32,058 bases of DNA from Legionellaceae bacterium. Its GTDB lineage: Bacteria > Pseudomonadota > Gammaproteobacteria > Legionellales > Legionellaceae. Under the pieces are notes generated by a model, which was given only the letters and a program-made list of their open reading frames with translations, had not been told where the DNA came from and did not search any database. A program made the position numbers and the translations under genes. The stretch spans positions 1-32,058 of the forward strand of contig CANJSM010000014.1 in NCBI GenBank assembly GCA_947477015.1, given 5' to 3'. This document shows, piece after piece, positions 1,851 to 31,858 of this stretch; position 1 is the stretch's first letter; each line of letters opens with the position of its first letter.

Positions 1851-2066
1851 AAAAGACTGAGATGTATAGGGCATCGAATTTAAATAAAAAGCGTAATTAA
1901 ATCTGCAGTTATTCGGTAAGCTGTTAAGCGCTAGTCTAATAGCTAGTATTTTTAAAAAGATAATCATTGTCTTCTCAGAAACTGCTACTGACAGACAGTG
2001 CATATCCGTGACGAAAGCATATTTATAGTGGATATCTAGAGAAAATTGTCGAGGGATTGGCTAAAG

Positions 2067-3209
2067 ATGAGTAATGTAATTAATTTTCTTGATCTTAATG
2101 CAATAAATAAGCCTTATCGTAATGAATTAATTGAAGCTTGCGCTCGGGTTATAGATTCAGGTTGGTATATTAAAGGTTCAGAGGTTCAATCATTTGAGAA
2201 AGCATTTGCCGCATATTGTGGAGTCAATCACTGTATAGGTGTTGCGAATGGCTTAGATGCACTCACGCTCACATTACGAGCATGGAAAGAATTAGATAAA
2301 TTAAAGGATGGTGATGAGGTTATTGTCCCAGCAAACACCTACATTGCGAGTATTCTTGCTATAACTGAAAACCACTTGCAACCGATACTGGTTGAGCCTG
2401 ACATAGATTCTTTCAATGTTTGTCCAGCGAAGATTGAAGCTGCAATAACGAAAAAAACACGAGCAATTCTACCTGTACATCTTTATGGACGCTTGGCAAA
2501 TATGCCTATGATTATGGAGCTGGCTAAACAATATGATTTACTCATATTAGAGGATTCCGCTCAGGCACATGGGGCAAGTTTTCAGGGTCGTAAAGCAGGA
2601 AGTTGGGGGCACGCGAGTGGATTTAGCTTTTATCCGGGTAAGAATTTAGGTGCTTTGGGCGATGCTGGAGCGGTCACAACCAATGATGATCAATTAGCAG
2701 AAACCATCCGAGCCATTGCAAACTATGGTAGCCATGTGAAATATAAAAATATATATCAAGGTGTCAATAGCCGCCTTGATGAAATTCAAGCGGCAATGTT
2801 GAAAGTAAAACTTGAACATCTAGACGAAGACACTTTGAAGCGACGCAAGGTCGCTCATGCTTACAGAACGGGCATCATAAATCCTCTGATTGAGTTACCT
2901 ACAGCTGATAGTGACGAGCAACACGTTTGGCATTTATTTGTTATTCGAACTAGGCAAAGACAAGCGTTGCAAGATTGGCTAAGCAAAAAAAACATTCAAA
3001 CACTGGTTCATTACCCTATTCCACCGCATCAACAGCAAGCTTATTCAGATTGGAAAGATAAAAGTTATCCAATCACAGAGCAGATCCATAATGAAGTAAT
3101 CAGCCTGCCCGTTAGCCCTTTATTAACTGATAGTGAAGTAGAAAGAGTCATTGCAGCAGTCAATTCTTTTTATGGATTAAAAAATGAAACTCACTCAATT
3201 TTAATATGA
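2067..3209 (+). CDS. DegT/DnrJ/EryC1/StrS sugar aminotransferase (FdtB/QdtB-like)
   Basis: A PLP-dependent aminotransferase that would convert a nucleotide-linked keto-sugar to an amino sugar in the cytosol. The signature '[15 protein letters not shown]' carries the PLP lysine (Lys192 from the chosen start), and '[10 protein letters not shown]' carries the cofactor-binding Asp. The '[15 protein letters not shown]' form is typical of 3-amino-3,6-dideoxyhexose enzymes (FdtB/QdtB/TylB type). A TTG at 2046 is in frame, but the ATG at 2067 is preferred: it has GAGGG at 2051-2055 and begins with [10 protein letters not shown], matching the usual family N terminus. The 380-residue length is normal. 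The upstream acyltransferase may act on its product. No matching 3,4-ketoisomerase (FdtA/QdtA) is visible. Confidence 0.9.
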
Positions 3210-3259: not shown

Positions 3260-4507
3260 ATGCAACTCCTCAAAGTTAGCCTACTTAATAGTATTGCTGT
3301 AACAATTAAATTATTAACCATGTTGGGTCTTAATAAACTTCTTGCTGTTTATGTTGGACCTGCTGGCTATGCTTTAATAGGTCAATTTCAAAATGCAATT
3401 CAGTTAATTACTTCATTTTCAAGCGGCATATTTTCTACAGGTATAACAAAATATACTGCAGAATATTATGAGAGTGAGGAACGTCAATATAAACTATGGA
3501 AAACCGCAGGAACTATTGCGCTTTCAAGTTCGCTAGTAACATCCATTTTAATAGTTCTTTTCAATAAGAAATTAACATACTTCTTTTTACACGATGAATA
3601 TTATAGCTCGGTATTTATCTGTTTTTCCTTTGGTTTAGTATTTTTTGTGTTTAATGCTTTAGTTATGTCTGTAATAAATGGAAAAAAAAATTTCTATCGA
3701 TATCTTATTATAAATATTCTTAGCAGTATTTTTTCTTTATTTATCACTGTAATATTAGCTGTTGAATTTGGACTTTATGGGGTACTCATTGGGTTGGTTG
3801 TCAATCAAGCTGCCGCCTTTTGCATTACATTTATAGTTTGTTACAAAGCACCATGGTTCAACGTGAGCAACTTTCTGGGCAAGCTTAATAAAATTGATTT
3901 GATAAATTTGTCTAAATATGCGGCAATGACTATTGTCAGTGTAATTTGCGTGCCAGCAAGTCAAATGCTTGTTAGAAAGCATATTGTTGCTAATTTTGGA
4001 TGGGAGATGGCAGGTTATTGGGACGCAATGATTCGTCTTAGTGGAGCATACTTGATGTTTGTTACTACAACATTATCAGTTTATTATCTACCAAGACTAT
4101 CAGAGTTAAAAAATGCTTCAGAAGTAAGAAATGAAATAAAAATGGCGTATAAAATTCTTTTGCCAGTTACTATAGTTTCTTCCTCAGCTATTTATTTATT
4201 TCGAAATGAAATAGTGAAACTATTATTTGCAGAACCATTTATGAATATGACTATACTGTTTAAATGGCAAATGCTAGGAGATACGTTCAAAATAATTAGT
4301 TGGCTACTTTCTTTTATTTATGTAGCAAAAGGTTATACGCGCTTATATATCATATCAGAGGTAACTTTTTCATTTACATTCTATTTACTAGTGATTGTTC
4401 TTGAAAAAATAGTTGGGCTAGAGTCCGTTTCTATTGCGCATGCTATTAATTATTTTTTTTATTTAATATTTGTTTATGTCTCATTAAGATCTGTGCGGGC
4501 TATATGA
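3260..4507 (+). CDS. wzx: O-antigen/polysaccharide flippase, WzxE-like
   Basis: A 415-residue polytopic inner-membrane protein of the polysaccharide transporter (MOP) superfamily that flips lipid-linked repeat units to the periplasm. The N terminus 'VSLLNSIAVTIKLLTMLG' followed by 'NKLLAVYVGPAGYALIGQFQN' and 'SGIFSTGITKYTAEY' matches the WzxE/WzxB subgroup pattern. About ten to twelve hydrophobic helices follow. It is very AT-rich and uses many ATA/AGA codons, like typical wzx genes. It lies 50 bases after the aminotransferase and is preceded by GAGAAAAA as the ribosome site. With the polymerase at 10422 it defines a Wzx/Wzy-dependent locus. Confidence 0.88.
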   Translation: MQLLKVSLLNSIAVTIKLLTMLGLNKLLAVYVGPAGYALIGQFQNAIQLITSFSSGIFSTGITKYTAEYYESEERQYKLWKTAGTIALSSSLVTSILIVLFNKKLTYFFLHDEYYSSVFICFSFGLVFFVFNALVMSVINGKKNFYRYLIINILSSIFSLFITVILAVEFGLYGVLIGLVVNQAAAFCITFIVCYKAPWFNVSNFLGKLNKIDLINLSKYAAMTIVSVICVPASQMLVRKHIVANFGWEMAGYWDAMIRLSGAYLMFVTTTLSVYYLPRLSELKNASEVRNEIKMAYKILLPVTIVSSSAIYLFRNEIVKLLFAEPFMNMTILFKWQMLGDTFKIISWLLSFIYVAKGYTRLYIISEVTFSFTFYLLVIVLEKIVGLESVSIAHAINYFFYLIFVYVSLRSVRAI

Positions 4508-13014: not shown

Positions 13015-13227
13015 ATGAATAAACAAACTGTTTTACTGAAATTAGATGAAATTAATGAGCTACCACTAGGAACATTAAAAGGCCATGAAAGTACTACTGA
13101 CTGGAGTTCTATTGTACTAATTAGTTTGATTGCACTTGCGGACGAGGAATTTAACAGACCTCTTAAGGTTAGCCAGCTAACTCAAGCATCCGTCGTTGAT
13201 GATGTTGTTGCTTTATTGATAGATTAG
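13015..13227 (+). CDS. Acyl-carrier-protein-like protein, atypical carrier site (W-S-S-I)
   Basis: A 70-residue acidic helical protein. The segment 'DWSSIVLISLIALADEEFN' (residues 29-47) lines up with helix II of small locus-specific ACPs (W-D-S-L...L-I-x-A-L-E-E-E-F), and 'SVVDDVVALLID' forms the last helix. Ser32 falls where phosphopantetheine would be attached, but the almost invariant Asp before it is Ser31 and the following Leu is Ile33. The protein is a little short for an ACP. It is 7 bases upstream of a KAS III gene and has an AAGGA ribosome site. Dedicated ACPs next to KAS III genes are known in glycan loci, which supports the call; whether it is phosphopantetheinylated is uncertain. 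Confidence 0.62.
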   Translation: MNKQTVLLKLDEINELPLGTLKGHESTTDWSSIVLISLIALADEEFNRPLKVSQLTQASVVDDVVALLID

Positions 13228-13234
13228 AACACCG

Positions 13235-14290
13235 ATGCCTATTATCGAGAATGTAAATATTACCGGTATAGCCGCTTGTGTGCCGTCGTGTGAAATTGAT
13301 AACACAACGGTTCAACATTTTCCTTTGGAACAGATTAACCAAATCATTAATAACACCGGAGTGAGAACAAGGCGGGTTCTAAAATCAGCCTGCGCATCAG
13401 ATTTGTGTTACCAAGCAGCTGTTGATTTGTTGACTAGTTTAGAATGCGCTGCGGACTCCATTGATATTATTATTTTTGTATCTCAGACACCGGATTATGT
13501 TTTACCCGCAACGGCATGTATTTTGCAGAGCAAGCTGGGTTTATCAAACAATGTGATGGCCTTTGATATTAATTTAGGTTGCTCAGGTTATGTATATGGC
13601 TTGATTGTTGCCGCACAGTTATTATGTACGGGAGCTTTCAAACGAGCGTTGCTCTTAACAGGTGACACTGTTTCTAAATTGGTCTCGGAACATGATAAAA
13701 CAGTGGCGTTTTTGTTTGGCGATGCAGGTGCTGCAACGCTACTCGAATATGATAAAGATGCGCACCCGATTGTTTTTGATTATGGAACAGATGGCTCTAA
13801 TGCTGATAAATTAATGGTAGAAGCCGGTGGCTTTCGTGTTAGAACTGAAAGTAACGCTTGCCAACGATTTTATGACGACTCGGGAAATTATCGATCGAAA
13901 TCTGAGTTGTTCATGAGTGGACCAGATGTGTTTGCCTTTACAATTAAACAAATCCCAGAAACCATATTAAAAACATTAGCTGAGGCCAAATGGTCTGTTG
14001 ATGATGTAAATACCTATTTTTTTCATCAGGCCAACGCATTTATGTTGAAGTATTTGATAAAAAAATTGGGTTTGAATCCTGAAAAAGTACCCATCAATCT
14101 TGAAGGGTATGGAAATACTAGCGTGGCTTCAATTCCTCTTACAATGTGTCTTTGTGCTGATAATCTTTCATTGGCTCAACCATCTAAATTTATTTTGGCG
14201 GGCTTTGGTGTTGGATTATCGTGGGCTACGGTAGCGTGTCAACTGAATCAAACCAGAATATTGCCATTGAGTTACTATGAAAATGAATAG
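13235..14290 (+). CDS. 3-oxoacyl-ACP synthase III (FabH/KAS III)-like protein, copy 1
   Basis: A 351-residue thiolase-fold condensing enzyme. The FabH catalytic triad is complete: Cys116 in 'NLGCSGYVYG', His264 in 'FFHQANAFM', and Asn294 in 'GYGNTSVASIP'. The N-terminal 'IINNTGVRTRRV' and the C-terminal 'LAGFGVGLSWAT' are also family marks. KAS III enzymes condense an acyl-CoA with malonyl-ACP. The ACP-like gene lies immediately upstream and the SDR overlaps the 3' end by 14 bases. This context points to production of a short 3-oxoacyl or 3-hydroxyacyl chain for sugar decoration rather than bulk fatty acid synthesis. It is a paralogue of the enzyme at 16836. Confidence 0.9.
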   Translation: MPIIENVNITGIAACVPSCEIDNTTVQHFPLEQINQIINNTGVRTRRVLKSACASDLCYQAAVDLLTSLECAADSIDIIIFVSQTPDYVLPATACILQSKLGLSNNVMAFDINLGCSGYVYGLIVAAQLLCTGAFKRALLLTGDTVSKLVSEHDKTVAFLFGDAGAATLLEYDKDAHPIVFDYGTDGSNADKLMVEAGGFRVRTESNACQRFYDDSGNYRSKSELFMSGPDVFAFTIKQIPETILKTLAEAKWSVDDVNTYFFHQANAFMLKYLIKKLGLNPEKVPINLEGYGNTSVASIPLTMCLCADNLSLAQPSKFILAGFGVGLSWATVACQLNQTRILPLSYYENE

Positions 14291-15041
14291 AGCATTTAGT
14301 TTATCGGGGCAAACTATATTAGTGACGGGTGCGTCGAGCGGGATCGGTCGTGCTTGTGCGGTTACCTGCGCTAGTATGGGGGCTCGCGTCATTTTGTTAG
14401 GCAGAAATGTTGCTGCGTTGGAAGAAACAAAAACAATGATGTCAATCAACGATCATGTGATCAGTCCACTTGATCTAATGTTGTTTGACTCAATTCCAGC
14501 CAAACTTCAAGAGATTGCGCAATCATTTGGGCCACTAAGTGGTCTTGCGCACTGTGCGGGCATTCACATGACAAGACCATTACGTATGTTATCTGCGGAT
14601 AACATAGCTGATATCATCAAAATGAACGTGACGACGGGAATATTGCTTGCAAAAGCTTTTCGTCATCAATTGGTTTGTTCCAAGCCAGCCAGTGTGGTAT
14701 TTATGTCATCTGTAGTGGGACTTGTTGGGCAAGCGGCCATTACGCCCTACGCCATGAGTAAAGGTGCTCTTCTTGCTGCTACTAAATCATTAGCCATCGA
14801 GTTGGCTCCAGAGGAAATCCGCGTCAATGCTGTGCTACCTGGCGTTATCAACACTCCGATGTCAGAGCAATTATTTGAAAAAATGGGGCAAACTCAAATT
14901 GATGAGATAAAAGCGGCGCATCCATTAGGCTTAGGTGAACCAGATGATGTGGCCAATGCAGTCGCTTACTTGCTGTCTCCGGCTGCTCGTTGGATAACTG
15001 GAACCCACCTGATCGTTGATGGTGGATATACAGCAATTTAG
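14277..15041 (+). CDS. FabG-like short-chain dehydrogenase/reductase
   Basis: A 254-residue classical SDR. Cofactor motif TGASSGIG is at residues 17-24, 'HCAGIH' follows near 92, and the catalytic set is Asn117, Ser145, Tyr158 and Lys162 ('PYAMSKGAL'). The C-terminal 'ITGTHLIVDGGYTAI' is typical of FabG/3-hydroxyacyl reductases. The likely job, from its position between two KAS III genes and next to an ACP-like gene, is reduction of a 3-oxoacyl thioester to the 3-hydroxyacyl form. A sugar or other alcohol substrate is not excluded. It overlaps the upstream KAS III gene, indicating coupled translation. Confidence 0.88.
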   Translation: MKMNRAFSLSGQTILVTGASSGIGRACAVTCASMGARVILLGRNVAALEETKTMMSINDHVISPLDLMLFDSIPAKLQEIAQSFGPLSGLAHCAGIHMTRPLRMLSADNIADIIKMNVTTGILLAKAFRHQLVCSKPASVVFMSSVVGLVGQAAITPYAMSKGALLAATKSLAIELAPEEIRVNAVLPGVINTPMSEQLFEKMGQTQIDEIKAAHPLGLGEPDDVANAVAYLLSPAARWITGTHLIVDGGYTAI

Positions 15042-15051
15042 GAATGTTGTC

Positions 15052-16152
15052 ATGGATAAATCCAAAACACTAATACCGCTGAATTATTTTTACGATAATG
15101 ATTTTTTCGCAAAAGAACAAAGCAATCTTTTCTCGCGAGTATGGCAGTTTGCGTGCTTTGAAGATGAGTTGATGAATGATGGGGATTACTTCACTTTTGA
15201 GCTGTTAGGCCTTTCTATTGTTTTGAGAAATTTTGCAGGTAGCATAAAAGCGTTTAAAAATGTTTGTTTACATCGATTCAGTAAAATCTGCATTGAAACA
15301 AAGGGAAATGGACCTTTACAATGCCCATATCATGGTTGGACATACAATCATAAAGGCGAGCCTTATGCTATTCCCGGAAGAAAAACATTTCAAAATGAGG
15401 ATGTTCAAAAATCTAGACTTCAATCCTTTGATGTTGAAAAAATAGGTAAATTCATTTTTATACGATTAGGTGCAGAGGGTTTGCCAATTGATACATTCAT
15501 TGATAACCCGACAAGGGACTTATTACTTACTGTCAGTGAAGCCCTTGGGAAGAAAATAGATACAAATGAGATGTTAATCGACGCTAATTGGAAAATTAAC
15601 GTAGAAAATACACTTGAAGACTACCATGTTCGCTCCGTGCATTCTGATACTTTATGGAAAGTGGGCATTATTGACTCACAATTTGCACTGAGCAAATATC
15701 ATTCTTCAACGACCATGATGTTTGAATTGAATTTGAATAAGTCTAGTGCTCTTTCAAGCATATATGCTGATAGGCCGTGGCATGTTAAAGATTATTTTCA
15801 TCAACTCATATTTCCAAATTTAACAATAGCGTCAGCTTTTGGAACAACCATCAGTATTCAACAGTTTATTCCTATTTCCAGCGAAAAAACAAAATTCATT
15901 AGCCATGTTTTTTCAACAAATGGATCCAAAATAGGCCACCCGGTTGTTGCTGCTTTCAACGAGAATGCAACAACATTTAATCGAAAAGTATTTTCAGAGG
16001 ATAAGGTAATCTGTGAGTCGGTCCATCAGGGAATACAGCAAATGGAGAGTTCTTCTCGAGGTTATTTTTCTTCACTTGAGGAGCGGGTTTGGTTTTTTGA
16101 GCGGGTTTATATGGATTTAATTGAACTTAATGATACTTTCGAGATTATATAA
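15052..16152 (+). CDS. Rieske-type non-heme iron oxygenase, alpha subunit
   Basis: A 366-residue oxygenase with both expected metal sites. The [2Fe-2S] Rieske motif is C72-L-H74 ... C91-P-Y-H94. The mononuclear iron motif is 'NTLEDYHVRSVH' with bridging Asp190, His192 and His197, and Asp317 ('FSEDKVICESV') is the probable third ligand. Such enzymes hydroxylate or demethylate small substrates with electrons from a reductase, with or without a separate ferredoxin; no such partner is in the window. An earlier in-frame TTG/ATG (15016/15019) lies inside the SDR gene. ATG 15052 is chosen because TAGGA precedes it by eight bases. Its place in a sugar locus suggests a hydroxylation of the acyl group or the sugar; the substrate is unknown. 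Confidence 0.88.
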   Translation: MDKSKTLIPLNYFYDNDFFAKEQSNLFSRVWQFACFEDELMNDGDYFTFELLGLSIVLRNFAGSIKAFKNVCLHRFSKICIETKGNGPLQCPYHGWTYNHKGEPYAIPGRKTFQNEDVQKSRLQSFDVEKIGKFIFIRLGAEGLPIDTFIDNPTRDLLLTVSEALGKKIDTNEMLIDANWKINVENTLEDYHVRSVHSDTLWKVGIIDSQFALSKYHSSTTMMFELNLNKSSALSSIYADRPWHVKDYFHQLIFPNLTIASAFGTTISIQQFIPISSEKTKFISHVFSTNGSKIGHPVVAAFNENATTFNRKVFSEDKVICESVHQGIQQMESSSRGYFSSLEERVWFFERVYMDLIELNDTFEII

Positions 16153-16232
16153 CAAGTTTTTTCAAGGTAAATAGCTATCTAATAATGAAGGTGAAAAATG
16201 TTACTTAGATTGATGCGACAAAAGAGAACTCT

Positions 16233-16832
16233 ATGAGAGATTTAATTATTGTGGGTGCAGGAGCATCTGGTCAAGAATTATATGCATGGGCTAGTCCTTA
16301 TTTTGATAGCATGAAGTTTAACTTCAAGGGATACATAGACGATATTAATTCCCATGCTTTTTCAACAATTGTTGATTATAACCCAGAGCCAAATGATGTA
16401 TTTATTTGCTCAATAGGGTCGCCATTGGCTCGAGTAACATGCAGTGAATATTTAACAAAAAAAGGCGCAGAATTTATTAATTTAATACACCCATCAGCTA
16501 TTGTATTGTCATCCCTCAAAGGGCAAGGGATTGTTGTTGCTCCATTTGTTTATATCTCAAATGATGTAGAAATAAATGATTACGTATTTATTAATGCTGC
16601 TGCAACAGTGGGACATAATGTGGTCATTGGTAAAGGGAGTACTCTTTGCGCACAGGTTGATTTAACTGGGTATGTTGTTGTTGGGGAGAAGGTTTTTATA
16701 GGTAGCCATGCTTGCGTGATTCCAAAAGTAAATGTTGGTGATGCAGCTATTGTTGGCGCGGGTAGTGCAGTGATGCGGAATGTGCCTGCCAACGCAACTG
16801 TTATTGGTGTGCCTGCAAAGAGGTTTATTTAA
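16233..16832 (+). CDS. PglD/NeuD-like sugar N-acyltransferase
   Basis: A 199-residue two-domain acyltransferase. The N-terminal Rossmann-like part starts 'DLIIVGAGASGQELYAWA' and would bind the UDP/dTDP sugar. The C-terminal left-handed beta-helix carries the catalytic His128 in 'NAAATVGHNVVIG', then 'GSHACVIPKVNVG', and ends 'VIGVPAKRFI'. In PglD and VioB relatives this fold acetylates the 4-amino group of a UDP- or dTDP-amino sugar using acetyl-CoA. Here, sitting inside a KAS III/SDR/ACP group, it may accept a longer hydroxyacyl thioester. The probable amine supplier is the DegT gene at 18655. It is 80 bases after the oxygenase and 3 bases before the second KAS III gene. Confidence 0.88.
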   Translation: MRDLIIVGAGASGQELYAWASPYFDSMKFNFKGYIDDINSHAFSTIVDYNPEPNDVFICSIGSPLARVTCSEYLTKKGAEFINLIHPSAIVLSSLKGQGIVVAPFVYISNDVEINDYVFINAAATVGHNVVIGKGSTLCAQVDLTGYVVVGEKVFIGSHACVIPKVNVGDAAIVGAGSAVMRNVPANATVIGVPAKRFI

Positions 16833-16835
16833 ACT

Positions 16836-17828
16836 ATGTCATATGCAGCAATTAAAGCTATTGAATATTATCTTCCCTCTATGGAGCTGTCAAATGAACA
16901 GCTTGCAATAGATTTCCCTGATTTTTCAGCGGATAAAATATTTTGCAAAACAGGAATCAAAAAAAGACATATTTGTGCGAGCAGTCAATTTTCATCTGAT
17001 ATGGCCATTGCTGCTGCAAATCAATTATTTAGTAGTAATCCAAGCATTAAAGAGAAAATTGACTTTGTGGTGTTTTGTTCTCAAACTCCAGACTATTTAT
17101 TGCCTACTACTGCTTGCATAATCCAAAATGCATTAGATTTGGATATGTCGGTTGGCGCGATGGATGTTAATTTAGGGTGCTCTGGGTTCGTTTATGGACT
17201 GTCTATAGCAAAAGGTTTAATCGAGTCTAAACAAGCGAACAATGTATTGTTGTTAACAGCAGATACCTATTCAAAATTAATGCATCAGTCTGATAAATCA
17301 GTTCGAACTATTTTTGGAGATGGAGCCGCAGCCACATGGATCACTAGCGTTTCTCATCATCAGCCATGCATTTCGCCGGTTTTGTTTGGCACAGATGGTT
17401 CAGGGTGGATGAACCTTTGTGTTAAAGGCCGCGGTATGCGTACATTTGATCAAACTGATGCTGATCCATTTTTAAGAATGCAAGGGCCGGAGATTTTTAG
17501 TTTTACTCTTGATACGGTTCCCAAATCAGTCATGCAATTATTGGCACGTGAACAATTAAATCTTGATGATATTGACTTGTTTGTGTTTCATCAAGCAAAT
17601 CAATATATTTTAGAGCATTTGAGAAAAAAAATAGGTATACCTTCTGAAAAATTTTTGTTAGCAATGGATTTTTGTGGTAATACTGTGTCATCGACGATTC
17701 CTATTGCACTAAAAGAGGCACAAAACAACCGAACACTAAGCGGTTGTCAAAAAGTGATGGTGGTGGGATTTGGCGTTGGTTATTCATGGGCAGCAAGCAT
17801 TATAAATTGTGAGTATCTTATTGAGTAG
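16836..17828 (+). CDS. 3-oxoacyl-ACP synthase III (FabH/KAS III)-like protein, copy 2
   Basis: A 330-residue FabH-like enzyme with an intact Cys115 ('NLGCSGFVYG'), His252 ('FHQANQYI') and Asn282 ('CGNTVSSTIP'). It is clearly related to the copy at 13235: both share 'SQTPDY-LLP-TACI' and 'GCSGxVYGL' contexts. They differ across most other positions, so they are diverged paralogues rather than a recent duplication. Only three bases separate it from the PglD-like gene. Two condensing enzymes could run two rounds of elongation, use different starters, or work as a pair. A non-condensing acyl-transfer role is also possible, since some KAS III relatives acylate sugars or amines. Confidence 0.9.
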   Translation: MSYAAIKAIEYYLPSMELSNEQLAIDFPDFSADKIFCKTGIKKRHICASSQFSSDMAIAAANQLFSSNPSIKEKIDFVVFCSQTPDYLLPTTACIIQNALDLDMSVGAMDVNLGCSGFVYGLSIAKGLIESKQANNVLLLTADTYSKLMHQSDKSVRTIFGDGAAATWITSVSHHQPCISPVLFGTDGSGWMNLCVKGRGMRTFDQTDADPFLRMQGPEIFSFTLDTVPKSVMQLLAREQLNLDDIDLFVFHQANQYILEHLRKKIGIPSEKFLLAMDFCGNTVSSTIPIALKEAQNNRTLSGCQKVMVVGFGVGYSWAASIINCEYLIE

Positions 17829-18008: not shown

Positions 18009-18614
18009 ATGTTTAAACGTTTGTTTGATATCGTTGTTGCTGGGTTGTTACTAGTTTTTCTGTCTCCTGTTATGCTACTAGCATCGGGACTCATTTTTTT
18101 TCGATTAGGTTCCCCCATTTTTTTTCGCCAATCACGCCCAGGCTTGAATCAAGCACCCTTTAAAATCATAAAGTTCAGAACAATGACAGATGCTGTGGAT
18201 TCTCAAGGAAACTATTTAACAGATGAGCAACGGCTAACTAAACTAGGTCAATTTTTTCGCGCAACGAGTGTTGATGAATTGCCGGAGTTATGGAATGTCA
18301 TTAAAGGTGAGATGAGTCTAGTAGGTCCTAGACCATTGCTGATGGAGTACTTACCCCTTTATAACAAAGATCAGTTGCGTCGTCATAAAATGCGCCCAGG
18401 TATTACAGGATGGGCGCAAGTGAATGGGCGAAATGCTATGTCTTGGGAAAAGAAATTTGAGTGTGATGTCTGGTATGTTGATAACAGCTCATTTTTATTG
18501 GACATTAAAATTCTTTTATTGACGATTATAAAAGTTTTTATGCGCGAGGGTATTCATTCCGAAGGACAAGTTACAGCGGAAAGATTTGAAGGGACCGCTG
18601 CGAGCGATGTGTAA
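18009..18614 (+). CDS. Initiating phosphoglycosyl transferase (PglC/WcaJ-type, bacterial sugar transferase)
   Basis: A 201-residue monotopic membrane enzyme that moves a sugar-1-phosphate from UDP-sugar to undecaprenyl phosphate, starting the repeat unit on the inner face of the inner membrane. It has one N-terminal membrane segment ('FDIVVAGLLLVFLSPVMLLA'), then 'FRQSRPGLNQAPFKIIKFRTM', the catalytic Asp89-Glu90 pair in 'SVDELPELWNVIKGEMSLVG', and 'RPGITGWAQVNGRN'. The short, single-domain form equals PglC, which uses UDP-di-N-acetylbacillosamine or related UDP-amino sugars. The neighbouring DegT and PglD-like genes fit that donor type. It is the only initiating enzyme in the window. Confidence 0.92.
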   Translation: MFKRLFDIVVAGLLLVFLSPVMLLASGLIFFRLGSPIFFRQSRPGLNQAPFKIIKFRTMTDAVDSQGNYLTDEQRLTKLGQFFRATSVDELPELWNVIKGEMSLVGPRPLLMEYLPLYNKDQLRRHKMRPGITGWAQVNGRNAMSWEKKFECDVWYVDNSSFLLDIKILLLTIIKVFMREGIHSEGQVTAERFEGTAASDV

Positions 18615-18654: not shown

Positions 18655-19875
18655 GTGTTAAATACAACCTTTTCATCATGGCCTGCTTATACTGAAGAAG
18701 AAGCAGATGCCGTTCGAACCCTTCTCTTGTCAAACAGAGTGAATTATTGGACGGGTTCAGAGTGTCAGTTATTTGAAGAAGATTTTGCTGCGTGGAGTGG
18801 AGTCGATTATGCCGTTGCATTAATGAATGGCACGGTTGCTCTTGATGTCGCTCTAAAAGCCCTTGATATTGGTGTAGGTGATGAAGTTATTGTAACGTCT
18901 CGAACCTTCATTGCGTCTGCATCATGCATAGTGCTCGCAGGCGCCACACCTGTTTTTGCCGATGTAGATGAAAACAGTCAAAACATCACGGCTGAAACGA
19001 TTAGACCTCTTTTATCACGACAAACAAAAGCCATTATTTGCGTGCACTTAGCCGGCTGGCCATGTGACATGGATCCCATTATGGATTTAGCGCGTGAACA
19101 GAATATATATGTCATTGAAGACTGTGCACAAGCTCACGGAGCTATTTACAAGGGACGCTCGGTTGGTTCCATTGGCCACATAGGTGCTTGGTCATTTTGT
19201 CAGGATAAAATTATGACAACCAGTGGAGAAGGAGGGATGGTGACTACAAATGACCCCGCCCTTTGGTCTAGAATGTGGTCGTATAAGGATCATGGTAAGT
19301 CACGAGAAGCCGTACTAAAATCAAAAAGCACATTGGAGTTCAATTGGGTCCATGATAATTTTGGAACCAATTGGCGAATGACAGAAATACAGGCGGTGAT
19401 AGGTCGAATTCAACTAAAACGCATGAAAGAGTGGCATGCTAAACGCCTTAGTAATGCTCAACGAATATGGTCTGTAGCTGAAGAACTGCCTGGTCTTAGA
19501 GTCCCTGAAATTCCACACCATAGTGAACACGCTGCTTATAAATGTTATGTCTTTGTTATTCCTGAGCAATTAGCTGTAGGTTGGAACCGGCATGGGATTT
19601 TAACGGCGATTCGCGAACGAGGTGTACCTTGTTACATAGGATCTTGTTCAGAGGTTTACCTTGAGAAAGCTTTTGATAACACCAGCTATCGGCCGAGCGA
19701 GCGTCTCACTGTTGCGCGCCGCCTTGGTGAGACTAGCTTAATGTTTTTGGTACATCCGACTTTAACCAGTGCAGAAATAGACAAGACAACTAGAGTATTG
19801 AGGGATGTCATGTTTATGGCCACTGCGCGCGTTCAATCAAGACAGAAACTTTCTTGTGAAATGGCGATTAGTTGA
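18655..19875 (+). CDS. DegT-family nucleotide-sugar aminotransferase, PglE/VioA-like role
   Basis: A 406-residue PLP enzyme. The PLP lysine is Lys185 in 'SFCQDKIMTTSGEGGMVTT', with 'IEDCAQAHGA' supplying the cofactor Asp. It starts with GTG preceded by a strong GGGAGGG site. The 'EGG' after the lysine is typical of C4 sugar aminotransferases such as PglE or Per, unlike the 3-aminotransferase-like copy at 2067. The product would be a 4-amino-4,6-dideoxy sugar that the PglD-like enzyme could N-acylate and the PglC-like enzyme could load on lipid. The matching retaining 4,6-dehydratase (PglF type) is not in the window; FnlA makes a C5-epimerised product. It ends the + strand locus. Confidence 0.87.
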   Translation: MLNTTFSSWPAYTEEEADAVRTLLLSNRVNYWTGSECQLFEEDFAAWSGVDYAVALMNGTVALDVALKALDIGVGDEVIVTSRTFIASASCIVLAGATPVFADVDENSQNITAETIRPLLSRQTKAIICVHLAGWPCDMDPIMDLAREQNIYVIEDCAQAHGAIYKGRSVGSIGHIGAWSFCQDKIMTTSGEGGMVTTNDPALWSRMWSYKDHGKSREAVLKSKSTLEFNWVHDNFGTNWRMTEIQAVIGRIQLKRMKEWHAKRLSNAQRIWSVAEELPGLRVPEIPHHSEHAAYKCYVFVIPEQLAVGWNRHGILTAIRERGVPCYIGSCSEVYLEKAFDNTSYRPSERLTVARRLGETSLMFLVHPTLTSAEIDKTTRVLRDVMFMATARVQSRQKLSCEMAIS

Positions 19876-20248: not shown

Positions 20249-22276
20249 TTAAGCAACCGCGCTCATAGCCCCAATAAACATGGGCGTCAATAGCTTATTT
20301 CCATATTCACTCATATGGTCGCCATCGTAATAAATGGGGCGACCATTAGCCTGAGCTTTACAACGACCATTTGCACATAGAAAGTCTACAGGATCTAGAA
20401 CACTTGCACCGCATTGAATAGACGTTGCTGAAATTAATTTTCGAACCACGGCACTATGTTTTAAATAATTTTCATAATCCAGCGATAGGTCATCTTTTTT
20501 GTTTAATAATAGATTGCGTGCTAATGTATTTGGAATATTTCTCCCCATTTCAGGCGTGGGTTGAACCAAAAAAACTGGATTTGTTGTTGATAGTTCACAA
20601 ATGGTTTTTTTAAGATTTTCTCTCCAGTCATTAATTAGCTGAGCGTTTACGACTGGATTAGGTTTGTCAAAATAAATAGCTGGAGCAGTCTTACCTTCTA
20701 CTACTCTTTTCGGATCTGTTTGGCCATATATATAAGCTGTTGTCCTAGCGACCCAAAAAATGGGCACTCCTTTGAATTCAGTTTTAATTTGTTTTAATCT
20801 TAAGCCATTTTCTATGTAGCATGAATCAGAGTTGTATGCGCTCTTCGCCCCCATAACAAATGGGCAAGATGCTTTGGTGAAGGCAATAATACCTTCATTT
20901 TTTAAATCAAATGCGTTCGATAATGCCGTAGTCAAAGCGTCTGCATGACTATCTCCTACAATGATAGCTTTAATTTTTTCCTTATTACCAATATAACATG
21001 GTTTTAATTCCCCTTTTTCGTTTTCGCCTGTCATACATTTATATGGGTTTGTATTTAAAGCTTCTTTCGCTGCTACAATAATTTCATCCGAATAGTGAAA
21101 TTCACATCCATTCGTCAAATAGATTAAGCTACCACTCATACCTACAAGCATGGAAATGTAAACAAAATTATATCTTGATAGCAAGATATTGATATGGGTA
21201 GACCATTTGGTTATGCTTAGCGGCTTCGAATAGCTTAATAAAGCTCCGCGGCTGCCACCGGCGTCAACCTCTAACAAATGGCTCTTTACATTCTTGAGCT
21301 TAATTTTTTCTATATACTTGTTACTTAAAAAACCCATAATGACAGACATTGTTATTGCGGCATAAATCCAAATTCCAGACAGTGAATAATAATAAATAGC
21401 CACTACTAAAGGCCAATGCCAAAGGTAGATAGAATATGACCATGTCCCTATTTTTTGAAATACCAAGTTGCCAGTGATAATACTGTGCTTTTGTTGTGAC
21501 TGAATAACCAGAAAAGAACCTAGAACAGGGAATATAGCCAAGTAACCTGGCCATGAACTATTTTTTGATATAAAAATGTAGGACCCAAGGATCAGTACTA
21601 GACCAAACCACTCGAGCGTCTTCTTACTAACGTCTTTGATTTTCAATGGATACAGATACGCCGCACCACCAAACAACATTTCCCATGTTCGTGTTGGTAA
21701 TAAATAATAAGCAGCGTTTGGCCATTTAAGAGTCGTAATAATGCAAAATAAAAAGCTTAACGCGATGCCACCCAGCACCGCTAATTTCATATTTATCATT
21801 GAAGTGTACTTGCGCATTATAACAAGCACTATTGGGTATATTATATAAAATTGCCACTCTGTAGATAATGACCATGTATGCAACAACCATTTTTCATGTG
21901 ATGCCATGTCAAAATAGCCGGCTTCTCTCCAATAAATTAAATTGGAAACGAAACTCAAACTGCTAGCTACATGTTTACCTAAGCTTCTATAATCTAATGG
22001 TGTCATGTAAAACCACCCGAATATAAGTAAAGCTATACACAATACAGTTAATGCAGGTAAAATTCTTACTGCTCTGGCAAGATAAAACTCTAAGATAGAA
22101 AATTTTTTTTGCTCAATCCGCTCAAATATAATTCCAGTCATTAAAAAACCTGAAATTACAAAGAATACGTCAACACCAGCATAACCACCGGGGAGCCATG
22201 CATAATTAAAATGGAATAATACGACAGCAATTACAGCGATAGCTCTTAACCCATTAATATCCTTTCTAAATCGCAT
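20249..22276 (-). CDS. OafA/YrhL-type membrane acyltransferase with C-terminal SGNH domain
   Basis: A 675-residue inner-membrane O-acyltransferase. The N-terminal acyltransferase-3 domain begins 'MRFRKDINGLRAIAVIAVVLFHF' with the hallmark 'LFHFNYAWLPGGYAGVDVFFVISGFLMTGII', followed by about ten membrane helices. The C-terminal periplasmic SGNH domain has the nucleophile in 'IIVGDSHADAL' and the Asp/His pair in 'YYDGDHMSEYGNK'. Such fusions O-acetylate lipopolysaccharide O-antigen or other glycans. The frame is open for 33 more codons upstream to 22375, but those lack family similarity. ATG 22276 with an AGAGAAG site is the better start. It faces the polysaccharide locus and likely decorates its product. 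Confidence 0.92.
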   Translation of the reverse strand: MRFRKDINGLRAIAVIAVVLFHFNYAWLPGGYAGVDVFFVISGFLMTGIIFERIEQKKFSILEFYLARAVRILPALTVLCIALLIFGWFYMTPLDYRSLGKHVASSLSFVSNLIYWREAGYFDMASHEKWLLHTWSLSTEWQFYIIYPIVLVIMRKYTSMINMKLAVLGGIALSFLFCIITTLKWPNAAYYLLPTRTWEMLFGGAAYLYPLKIKDVSKKTLEWFGLVLILGSYIFISKNSSWPGYLAIFPVLGSFLVIQSQQKHSIITGNLVFQKIGTWSYSIYLWHWPLVVAIYYYSLSGIWIYAAITMSVIMGFLSNKYIEKIKLKNVKSHLLEVDAGGSRGALLSYSKPLSITKWSTHINILLSRYNFVYISMLVGMSGSLIYLTNGCEFHYSDEIIVAAKEALNTNPYKCMTGENEKGELKPCYIGNKEKIKAIIVGDSHADALTTALSNAFDLKNEGIIAFTKASCPFVMGAKSAYNSDSCYIENGLRLKQIKTEFKGVPIFWVARTTAYIYGQTDPKRVVEGKTAPAIYFDKPNPVVNAQLINDWRENLKKTICELSTTNPVFLVQPTPEMGRNIPNTLARNLLLNKKDDLSLDYENYLKHSAVVRKLISATSIQCGASVLDPVDFLCANGRCKAQANGRPIYYDGDHMSEYGNKLLTPMFIGAMSAVA

Positions 22277-22530
22277 AACTTCTCTTGTTTGGTGAATTAG
22301 GCAGGGGACAATAACAATATCCCTGTTCGCTGTCATTTCAGTCGCATTACAGCAGATAAACTTTGGTCTTGTCAATCTAAGTCATTAGTCCGATTTATTT
22401 TCTTAATGCATCGAGTGAACTCTTGGAGGGGTTATAGCTTTTATAAAGATTATGCTCTCTGGTGTATAAGCTGATTCTTGGTGTAGTTCCAGCTAAGTTG
22501 AGTTATATATACAAGCGCGGGATTCAGCCT

Positions 22531-30454: not shown

Positions 30455-30523
30455 TGGCGCTTCCAAGAGGCGCCTATTTTTTTAACAATTCATAAGCAAC
30501 AACTTTTCTTGTTCACTTTTTCT
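30439..30523. repeat. Left inverted repeat of the IS
   Basis: It reads outer palindrome, terminator hairpin, T-run, then AACAATTCATAAGCA and the transposase 3' end. It is the reverse complement of 31968-32052 apart from four positions. Confidence 0.85.
30456..30483 (+). terminator. Inward-facing intrinsic terminator in left IS repeat
   Basis: GGCGCTTC-CAA-GAGGCGCC (30456-30474, one G-T wobble) is followed by TATTTTTTT. It would stop + strand transcription entering the IS from the omptin side. On the - strand the U-tract is missing, so it is not a proper terminator for the transposase gene itself. Confidence 0.8.
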
Positions 30524-31858
30524 ACTTTGTTTTAAAACAGGAAACGACTTAGGCCTTTGCCTAACAGCTCTAGGCTCAACTCTTCCTGGCCTATTACTGA
30601 CTTTGTTTTTAGCAATATAATCCAATAAATATTCATATAAGATGATTTTTTGTTGTTTTTTCACATTGTGAAATAGTAGCGTAAATTGATTTAATAATTG
30701 AATAGTGCCTTTAAAGCTTATTTGAGTTGGGTGAAGTTTATGTTTAACACTTGCTTTTACCATAAGATTTCTAATCATATTGTAAGCTAAAAAATGAATG
30801 CCGATCTCTTTCTCAATCATAGCAGGTGTTTTACAAGTAAGCCGATTCATTGCCATGACTGTTTTGATGAAATTCAGATTCGTTTCCACCTCCCATCTTC
30901 GCTTATAAAGCAACCTTAGTTCTTTTTTAGTGTATTTTTTGGAATCTAAAAAAGTTGTCACATAAATTACACCTTCCTCTTTAAACTCCCTTATGTCCAA
31001 GGTATCAGGGTAAGACTTATACTCCTCAGTACTCATCCACTCAGGTTTTATAGGTTTTTTCCATGCTGCAATATGGTCATACTTTCCTAAACGTTTTCCT
31101 TGACGAAAATCATAACATCGTTGAGCCGCGCCACGAAAAACACCATCTACGCCTTTACGTTTTAAGTCGCACATCAAGAAAAAATGAGGATAGTATCGAT
31201 CACCTAATACAATGTCATTTGTTTGAATGCAATCTAAAATACCTCTGAGTAATGATGATTCACCAGTGCCTTTTCCTTTACATGGGCCTATCGCATAATC
31301 AATAACACTACCCGTCGTTAATGACATCACTGCCACAAGGCGTGCTAGCGGGAAGCCTACATTTTTATTTTGATTACTGTGTTTAGAAAACTGTGCGACA
31401 TTAGCTTCCGTATCCGGCATTGTAATCGTTGTTCCATCAAATACTTTTAAATCACGACCGTATGGCTTCCATTCATCAGGAGATTGTTTAACAAGCGTTG
31501 TCCCAACAAGCTTTACAAGCTCATGCACAACTGTACCTGGCAAACGTTGCCTAGCTTTAACATAAGCCCCGGTTGAGTTGCCAACCAACACGCCCGACTT
31601 TGATAATTCATTTACTATGACACTGCAAACGGCATTTTTGCATGATTTATCACTAGAGAGGACTTGCTTAATAAATATCAATAATGTTTTTAATGGGTTG
31701 TATAGTGTCTGTGCTTGAAGTGACCAACAAGACTCATTTATTAATTGTTTACAACCTTCAGAGTTAAATACGTGTGATAACGTTTCTATTGAACCTTGGT
31801 CCAAGTATTGTTTGTAATTATTAAATTGAATGATTTGATAATTTTCTTTAAACTTCAT
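30482..31858 (-). CDS. IS4-family transposase (DDE)
   Basis: A 458-residue transposase. The DDE triad is Asp141 ('FDGTTITMPD'), Asp220 ('LGDRYYPHF') and Glu325 in 'LYKRRWEVETNLNFIKTVM'. This last stretch also holds the IS4 signature Y-x2-R-x3-E-x6-K (Tyr318, Arg321, Glu325, Lys332). The gene is full length and uninterrupted, so the element may still be active. The C terminus is very basic. The start ATG directly abuts a hairpin whose 3' arm contains the AAGGA ribosome site. The stop codon lies in the left inverted repeat. Confidence 0.95.
   Translation of the reverse strand: MKFKENYQIIQFNNYKQYLDQGSIETLSHVFNSEGCKQLINESCWSLQAQTLYNPLKTLLIFIKQVLSSDKSCKNAVCSVIVNELSKSGVLVGNSTGAYVKARQRLPGTVVHELVKLVGTTLVKQSPDEWKPYGRDLKVFDGTTITMPDTEANVAQFSKHSNQNKNVGFPLARLVAVMSLTTGSVIDYAIGPCKGKGTGESSLLRGILDCIQTNDIVLGDRYYPHFFLMCDLKRKGVDGVFRGAAQRCYDFRQGKRLGKYDHIAAWKKPIKPEWMSTEEYKSYPDTLDIREFKEEGVIYVTTFLDSKKYTKKELRLLYKRRWEVETNLNFIKTVMAMNRLTCKTPAMIEKEIGIHFLAYNMIRNLMVKASVKHKLHPTQISFKGTIQLLNQFTLLFHNVKKQQKIILYEYLLDYIAKNKVSNRPGRVEPRAVRQRPKSFPVLKQSRKSEQEKLLLMNC

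Follow-up and report, generated by a model that had tools for sequence, protein, structure and literature searches.

The window analysed here, the whole 32,058 nt stretch at positions 1-32,058 (forward strand) of contig CANJSM010000014.1 from the Legionellaceae bacterium assembly GCA_947477015.1, harbored at 13015-17828 a six-gene cassette that is a candidate system for building a hydroxylated acyl group and attaching it to a sugar. All six open reading frames (ORFs) were intact and lay on the + strand. In order, they encoded a dedicated acyl carrier protein of 70 amino acids (ACP; 13015..13227), a type A 3-ketoacyl-ACP synthase III (KAS III; KASA, 13235..14290), a FabG-like short-chain dehydrogenase/reductase predicted to be a 3-ketoacyl-ACP reductase (SDR; 14277..15041), an alpha-only Rieske non-haem iron oxygenase (15052..16152), a PglD/VioB-type N-acyltransferase (16233..16832), and a type B KAS III (KASB; 16836..17828). 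The ACP and KASA genes were separated by 7 nt, KASA and SDR overlapped by 14 nt, and gaps of 10, 80 and 3 nt followed between SDR and Rieske, Rieske and PglD, and PglD and KASB, respectively. A previous sequence-only reading of this DNA had reported the six genes with intact catalytic residues and tight spacing at four of the five junctions; both observations were borne out, the former by Pfam and NCBIfam annotations, motifs and, for the ACP, homology.

Pfam recognised the two KAS III (ACP_syn_III/C), the SDR, the Rieske and Ring_hydroxyl_A domains, and the hexapeptide transferase. Both KAS III possessed the Cys-His-Asn triad, with the motifs GCSG, FHQAN and GNT at 115, 263 and 293 in KASA, whose nearest PDB entry was 4efi, and their equivalents at 114, 251 and 281 in KASB. 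The SDR kept the TGxxxGIG motif, the catalytic Ser and YxxxK. The PglD-type protein had PglD and VioB as top PDB matches and a catalytic His in a GHN motif (127), and scored 160.6 bits against TIGR03570 (NeuD/PglB/VioB), 0.2 bit under the cut-off of 160.8. The window ACP alone had no Pfam match. It was 54-56% identical to its counterpart in the related cassette of genome G133 (described below), which itself gave 19.5 bits to PP-binding, and 28% identical to that of Burkholderia glumae, which scored above the PP-binding cut-off. Its Ser32, the predicted phosphopantetheine attachment site, was invariant in 12 cassette homologues.

The Rieske ORF opens at a TTG (15016), and the ATG at 15052 is the most likely start because it lies close to the start of the nearest homologue. 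The protein possessed the motifs CLH (72), CPYH (91), EDYH (189) and a second ED (316), and the cluster and iron ligands C72, H74, C91, H94, H192, H197 and D317 were invariant in 16 sequences, as expected for a Rieske alpha subunit. Its structure was predicted with a pLDDT of 89.5 from an alignment in which 3 of the 16 rows, from plasmid records, were left out, and the predicted fold was nearest to stachydrine demethylase and CntA. These two enzymes are alpha-only monooxygenases acting on aliphatic C-H bonds. The window protein shared with them the fold, the alpha-only domain composition, a Glu at the bridging position and the iron ligands, but it was only about 18-20% identical to them, their substrate class is another one, and its gene had no adjacent reductase gene. 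By score it also fell outside the GbcA/CntA family (111 bits, where the GbcA cut-off is 670).

The same six-gene set, Rieske included, recurred in no fewer than 26 further bacteria, in most cases next to flagellin genes. A KASA search of 369 genomes of the class retrieved G133, a member of another family, in which the gene order ACP-KASA-SDR-Rieske-PglD-KASB was identical to that of the window and the proteins were 53-65% identical (KASA 60%, SDR 65%, Rieske 53%, PglD 54%, KASB 64%); the taxonomic order of G133 was represented by only 2 genomes in the data set. No close Rieske relative was found in 56 other genomes of the window's own genus and family, so the window lineage probably gained the cassette sideways. 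A scan of genome contigs with the window Rieske yielded generic GbcA-like genes only.

Cassette counts were obtained from a single family sample of 343 genomes of Burkholderiaceae, the family of a Massilia locus. Twenty of these genomes encoded a Rieske sharing 44-62% identity with the B. glumae protein. In all 20 neighbourhoods it stood together with two KAS, ACP, SDR and PglD genes, and most of these neighbourhoods also contained VioA, flagellin and a TPR glycosyltransferase; at one of the 20 loci, L121, the KAS pair had a long-branched type A relative as its second member. Searching this sample with KASB revealed four further two-KAS cassettes with remote Rieskes (27-32% identity; G440, G752, G564, G686) and one locus with the five other genes, VioA and flagellin that lacked a Rieske (G623, L159), which provides a natural minus-oxygenase comparison. 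Overall, 24 of the 25 two-KAS cassettes in the sample possessed a Rieske. On the B. glumae plasmid pBGF3, all six genes were present beside flagellin and fliD in the order VioA-KASB-ACP-KASA-SDR-acyltransferase-Rieske, an arrangement that differs from that of the window; the pBGF3 KASA (L080 13263-14364) is unannotated and split over two overlapping frames, through either a frameshift (pseudogene) or a sequencing error. In another locus (L112, genome G758), the cassette lay between PglC and DegT genes homologous to those flanking the window cassette (59% and 65% identity). In the phylum sample, KASB gave few matches, among them a single-KAS set (G881).

As the same set recurs intact in other genomes, the co-location of the six genes is beyond chance, a chance neighbourhood was rejected, and the cassette is a transferable, recurrent unit rather than a one-off locus. 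It also appears to have been plugged into different sugars, since most Burkholderiaceae loci use VioA, which makes a 4-amino sugar without an acetamido group. That the genes serve instead a diffusible metabolite or a fatty acid pathway unrelated to glycans is highly improbable, and this explanation was rejected because the cassette neighbours are glycan genes: a PglD/VioB-type sugar acyltransferase occurred in every six-gene cassette, and the neighbours were mostly VioA, PglC, DegT aminotransferases, glycosyltransferases and flagellin. In its favor, the Burkholderia pseudomallei genes BPSL3323-3329 have been filed under fatty acid biosynthesis and co-vary with a metabolite locus (PMC4855414). 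In strain K96243, these include two KAS (BPSL3324 and 3326), an SDR (3327) and a Rieske (3329), near the flagella genes 3319-3321 (PMC4855414); BPSL3325 and 3328, which are absent from the table of that study, would encode the ACP and the acyltransferase. The papers found do not describe these Burkholderiaceae flagellin islands as an acyl pathway.

In phylogenetic trees, KASA and KASB formed two separate clades, each apart from housekeeping FabH. Single-KAS sets accompanied by ACP and SDR genes contained either the KASA type (G071) or the KASB type (G881), and these contradictory contexts led us to reject any assignment of the first or second condensation to one of the two enzymes. Since each type may be able to start a chain, these sets also lend some support to the idea that the two KAS III are alternatives, each accepting its own starter, and that the product is a branched or C4-C5 acyl group, which the Rieske would turn into a dihydroxy short acyl. 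We consider this unlikely, given that the KAS pair was retained in 25 cassettes and that a Rieske-less two-KAS set is paired with a six-carbon product. In Flavobacterium psychrophilum, wfpC and wfpE (KAS), wfpD (ACP), wfpF (ketoacyl-ACP reductase) and wfpG (PglD homologue) are the predicted source of the 3,5-dihydroxyhexanoyl group seen by nuclear magnetic resonance on QuiNAc4N (PMC6519341). This O-polysaccharide R1 locus resembles the window in its ACP, two differing KAS, single reductase and PglD homologue, and probably in its UDP-QuiNAc4N acceptor, whereas its product is known and no Rieske is named among its genes (PMC6519341). Five of the six components are therefore already described as wfpC-G, and the Rieske is the undescribed addition: the earlier statement that no described pathway has this combination stands for the Rieske-containing set but not for the other five genes. 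Literature searches on flagellin or O-antigen Rieskes, or on trihydroxyhexanoyl, returned no description of the six-gene pathway. Single-KAS vio sets yield 3-hydroxybutyryl, as in the Pseudomonas syringae viosamine island (vioA, vioM, vioT, vioS, vioB, vioR, acp), which shares with the window a KAS III, an SDR, an ACP and a VioB-type acyltransferase that place a hydroxyacyl group on a 4-amino sugar, but differs in having one KAS III and no Rieske, dTDP-viosamine as acceptor, and a flagellin rather than an O-unit context (PMC3927599). Likewise, the flagellin of Burkholderia cenocepacia bears Qui4N(3-OHBut) (PMC12355684).

The cassette was followed, as had been noted from the sequence and is supported by PDB matches, by a PglC-like phosphoglycosyl transferase (18009..18614, + strand), a predicted initiator whose best match was N,N'-diacetylbacillosaminyl-1-phosphate transferase (E = 1.5e-71), and by a DegT C4-aminotransferase of the Pcryo_0638 type (18655..19875, + strand; E = 8.7e-165 against 7l7x). 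The Psychrobacter cryohalolentis aminotransferase Pcryo_0638 has been shown to produce UDP-QuiNAc4N (UDP-2-acetamido-4-amino-2,4,6-trideoxyglucose), and its Q183 touches the C-2 acetamido group (PMC8040287). The window DegT, a close homologue, kept its contact residues D156, S180, Q183 and K185, at identical positions. The linked genes would thus supply a 4-amino sugar, with a membrane-type 4,6-dehydratase on a separate contig of the same genome (C69). Because the DegT retains the diagnostic Gln183 and the initiator is PglC-like, the acceptor is more likely UDP-QuiNAc4N, of the bacillosamine series, than viosamine; the viosamine-type chemistry put forward earlier is thus supported as regards an N-acylated 4-amino sugar, but probably not as regards its identity. 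UDP-QuiNAc4N is likely shared with the Pcryo_0638/0637 system, in which, contrary to what is proposed here, the N-4 group is a plain acetyl (PMC8040287).

From gene content, catalytic residues, orthology, recurrence and predicted fold, we infer the chemical steps and their sequence, as well as chain length and degree of hydroxylation, as follows. The cassette would produce a polyhydroxylated six-carbon acyl group attached to N-4 of a 4-amino sugar, a reading to which we give a probability of roughly 0.6. One KAS III would join acetyl-CoA and malonyl-ACP, and the SDR would reduce the product to 3-hydroxybutyryl-ACP; the other KAS III would add a second malonyl unit, which the same SDR would convert into 3,5-dihydroxyhexanoyl-ACP. 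By extension from the Rieske-less wfp set making 3,5-dihydroxyhexanoyl, the Rieske, with electrons from a general reductase, would then hydroxylate a further aliphatic carbon, most likely giving trihydroxyhexanoyl, with the chain either still bound to the ACP or already on the sugar. The PglD-type enzyme would place the acyl chain on N-4 of UDP-QuiNAc4N, the likely product of the C69 dehydratase and the DegT at 18655, and the PglC-like enzyme would load the acylated sugar phosphate onto undecaprenyl phosphate, where it would be the first sugar of the repeat unit. Comparative genomics supports the earlier suggestion that a custom hydroxyacyl group, longer or more hydroxylated owing to the second KAS III and the oxygenase, is carried by a dedicated ACP and moved to a sugar amino group.

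Several observations weigh against this six-carbon pathway. No measured product was found in the literature for any Rieske-containing cassette. No flavin mononucleotide (FMN)/ferredoxin reductase gene occurred within the cassette or the rest of the window, and candidate reductases (NAD_binding_1 proteins) were located only on contigs C8, C11 and C12 of the same genome. The cassette Rieskes corresponded to one change on the Rieske tree, but the branch uniting them had 78% support and comprised three or four subclades, so that one shared reaction is not required and Rieskes may possibly have been recruited into cassettes repeatedly. Moreover, Azospirillum and two genomes of the Burkholderiaceae sample (G607 and G481) possessed a related Rieske with a KASA-type KAS, an SDR, a GNAT and nonulosonic acid genes, and no KASB; the Rieske is therefore not tied to a six-carbon chain or to two-KAS sets. 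In Azospirillum sp. TSH100 (L077 21574-23219), a second Rieske, split into two overlapping ORFs, was present in the KAS III/SDR group besides the intact one.

These Azospirillum loci, together with the adjacency of the Rieske gene to the acyltransferase gene in many cassettes, are also consistent with a scheme in which the five other genes build and attach the acyl group and the Rieske instead acts on the sugar, oxidising its ring or the acetamido group at C-2. CMP-Neu5Ac hydroxylase is a Rieske enzyme that converts N-acetyl into N-glycolyl. Although somewhat better placed than alternative starters, oxidation of the sugar is improbable: the Rieske tracked the two-KAS cassette, in the proportion given above, with either VioA or a Pcryo_0638-type sugar gene, and an N-acetyl target misfits the flagellin islands because the VioA sugar has no C-2 acetamido group.

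A further point against the proposed acyl pathway concerns the window ACP, which lacks the usual Asp before Ser32 and has, in the window sequence only, a Ser at this position (SSI instead of DSI or DSL). In addition, the contig begins inside an epimerase gene (1-520), and hence the polysaccharide locus lacks its upstream end here. An atypical ACP and a partial locus at a contig edge could indicate that the cassette is decaying or inactive and that the polysaccharide bears another acyl group; with six intact frames, conserved catalytic residues and ACP Ser, and the identity to the distant intact cassette of G133, this seems very unlikely, if marginally less so than an unrelated metabolite pathway.

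The six-carbon pathway was also compared with a reported glycan mass. According to a review, the flagellin glycan of B. pseudomallei is 291.1 Da (PMC3958885). Computed Qui4N residue masses were 231.11 with hydroxybutyryl, 275.14 with dihydroxyhexanoyl and 291.13 with trihydroxyhexanoyl, and the agreement with the last is suggestive. However, a combination of Qui4N with a deoxyhexose would be identical in formula, N-acetylneuraminic acid (Neu5Ac) has a mass of 291.095, and the review gives acetyl, formic acid and acetamidino features for the 291 Da glycan (PMC3958885); with such isobaric alternatives, the match was rejected as proof. Tentatively, and with somewhat less than even odds, the Rieske may hydroxylate an acyl-ACP or an N-acyl-nucleotide sugar in a dedicated three-hydroxyl C6 pathway found in both O-antigen and flagellin loci throughout the Proteobacteria; in that case the B. 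pseudomallei glycan would be N-trihydroxyhexanoyl-viosamine.

Concerning the rest of the polysaccharide locus, homologues of FnlA, FnlB and FnlC were present in the window genome, which suggests N-acetyl-L-fucosamine (L-FucNAc) in the same repeat unit, as in the O-unit of F. psychrophilum (PMC6519341). A second DegT aminotransferase (2046-3209) is 30% identical to the first but lacks the SFxQDK motif; together with a WbbJ-like acetyltransferase (1167-1850), it points to a possible second amino sugar in this unit. Just past the locus, on the opposite strand, an OafA-like AT3-SGNH O-acyltransferase (20249-22375, - strand) is a candidate polysaccharide O-acetylase, and an intact-looking ORF of 458 amino acids (30482-31858, - strand), some 11 kb further downstream than the locus, resembles an IS4-type transposase and is a putative one. 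Beside the 4,6-dehydratase on C69, a separate type II fatty-acid-like cluster (L165, G000:C69, 3093-7874) contained, by eye, a putative ACP, a FabZ-like protein and two FabF-like synthases.

If correct, the proposed pathway would introduce a new enzyme class into bacterial sugar tailoring, namely a Rieske that hydroxylates an acyl chain bound to a carrier or a sugar, and would account for the repeated association of a Rieske with two KAS III in both flagellin and O-antigen loci. It would also allow glycans of open structure to be checked against exact residue masses, predicted as 291.13 with Qui4N as the sugar and 332.16 with QuiNAc4N. As the acyl group would sit on the cell surface, it would bear on serotype and host recognition.

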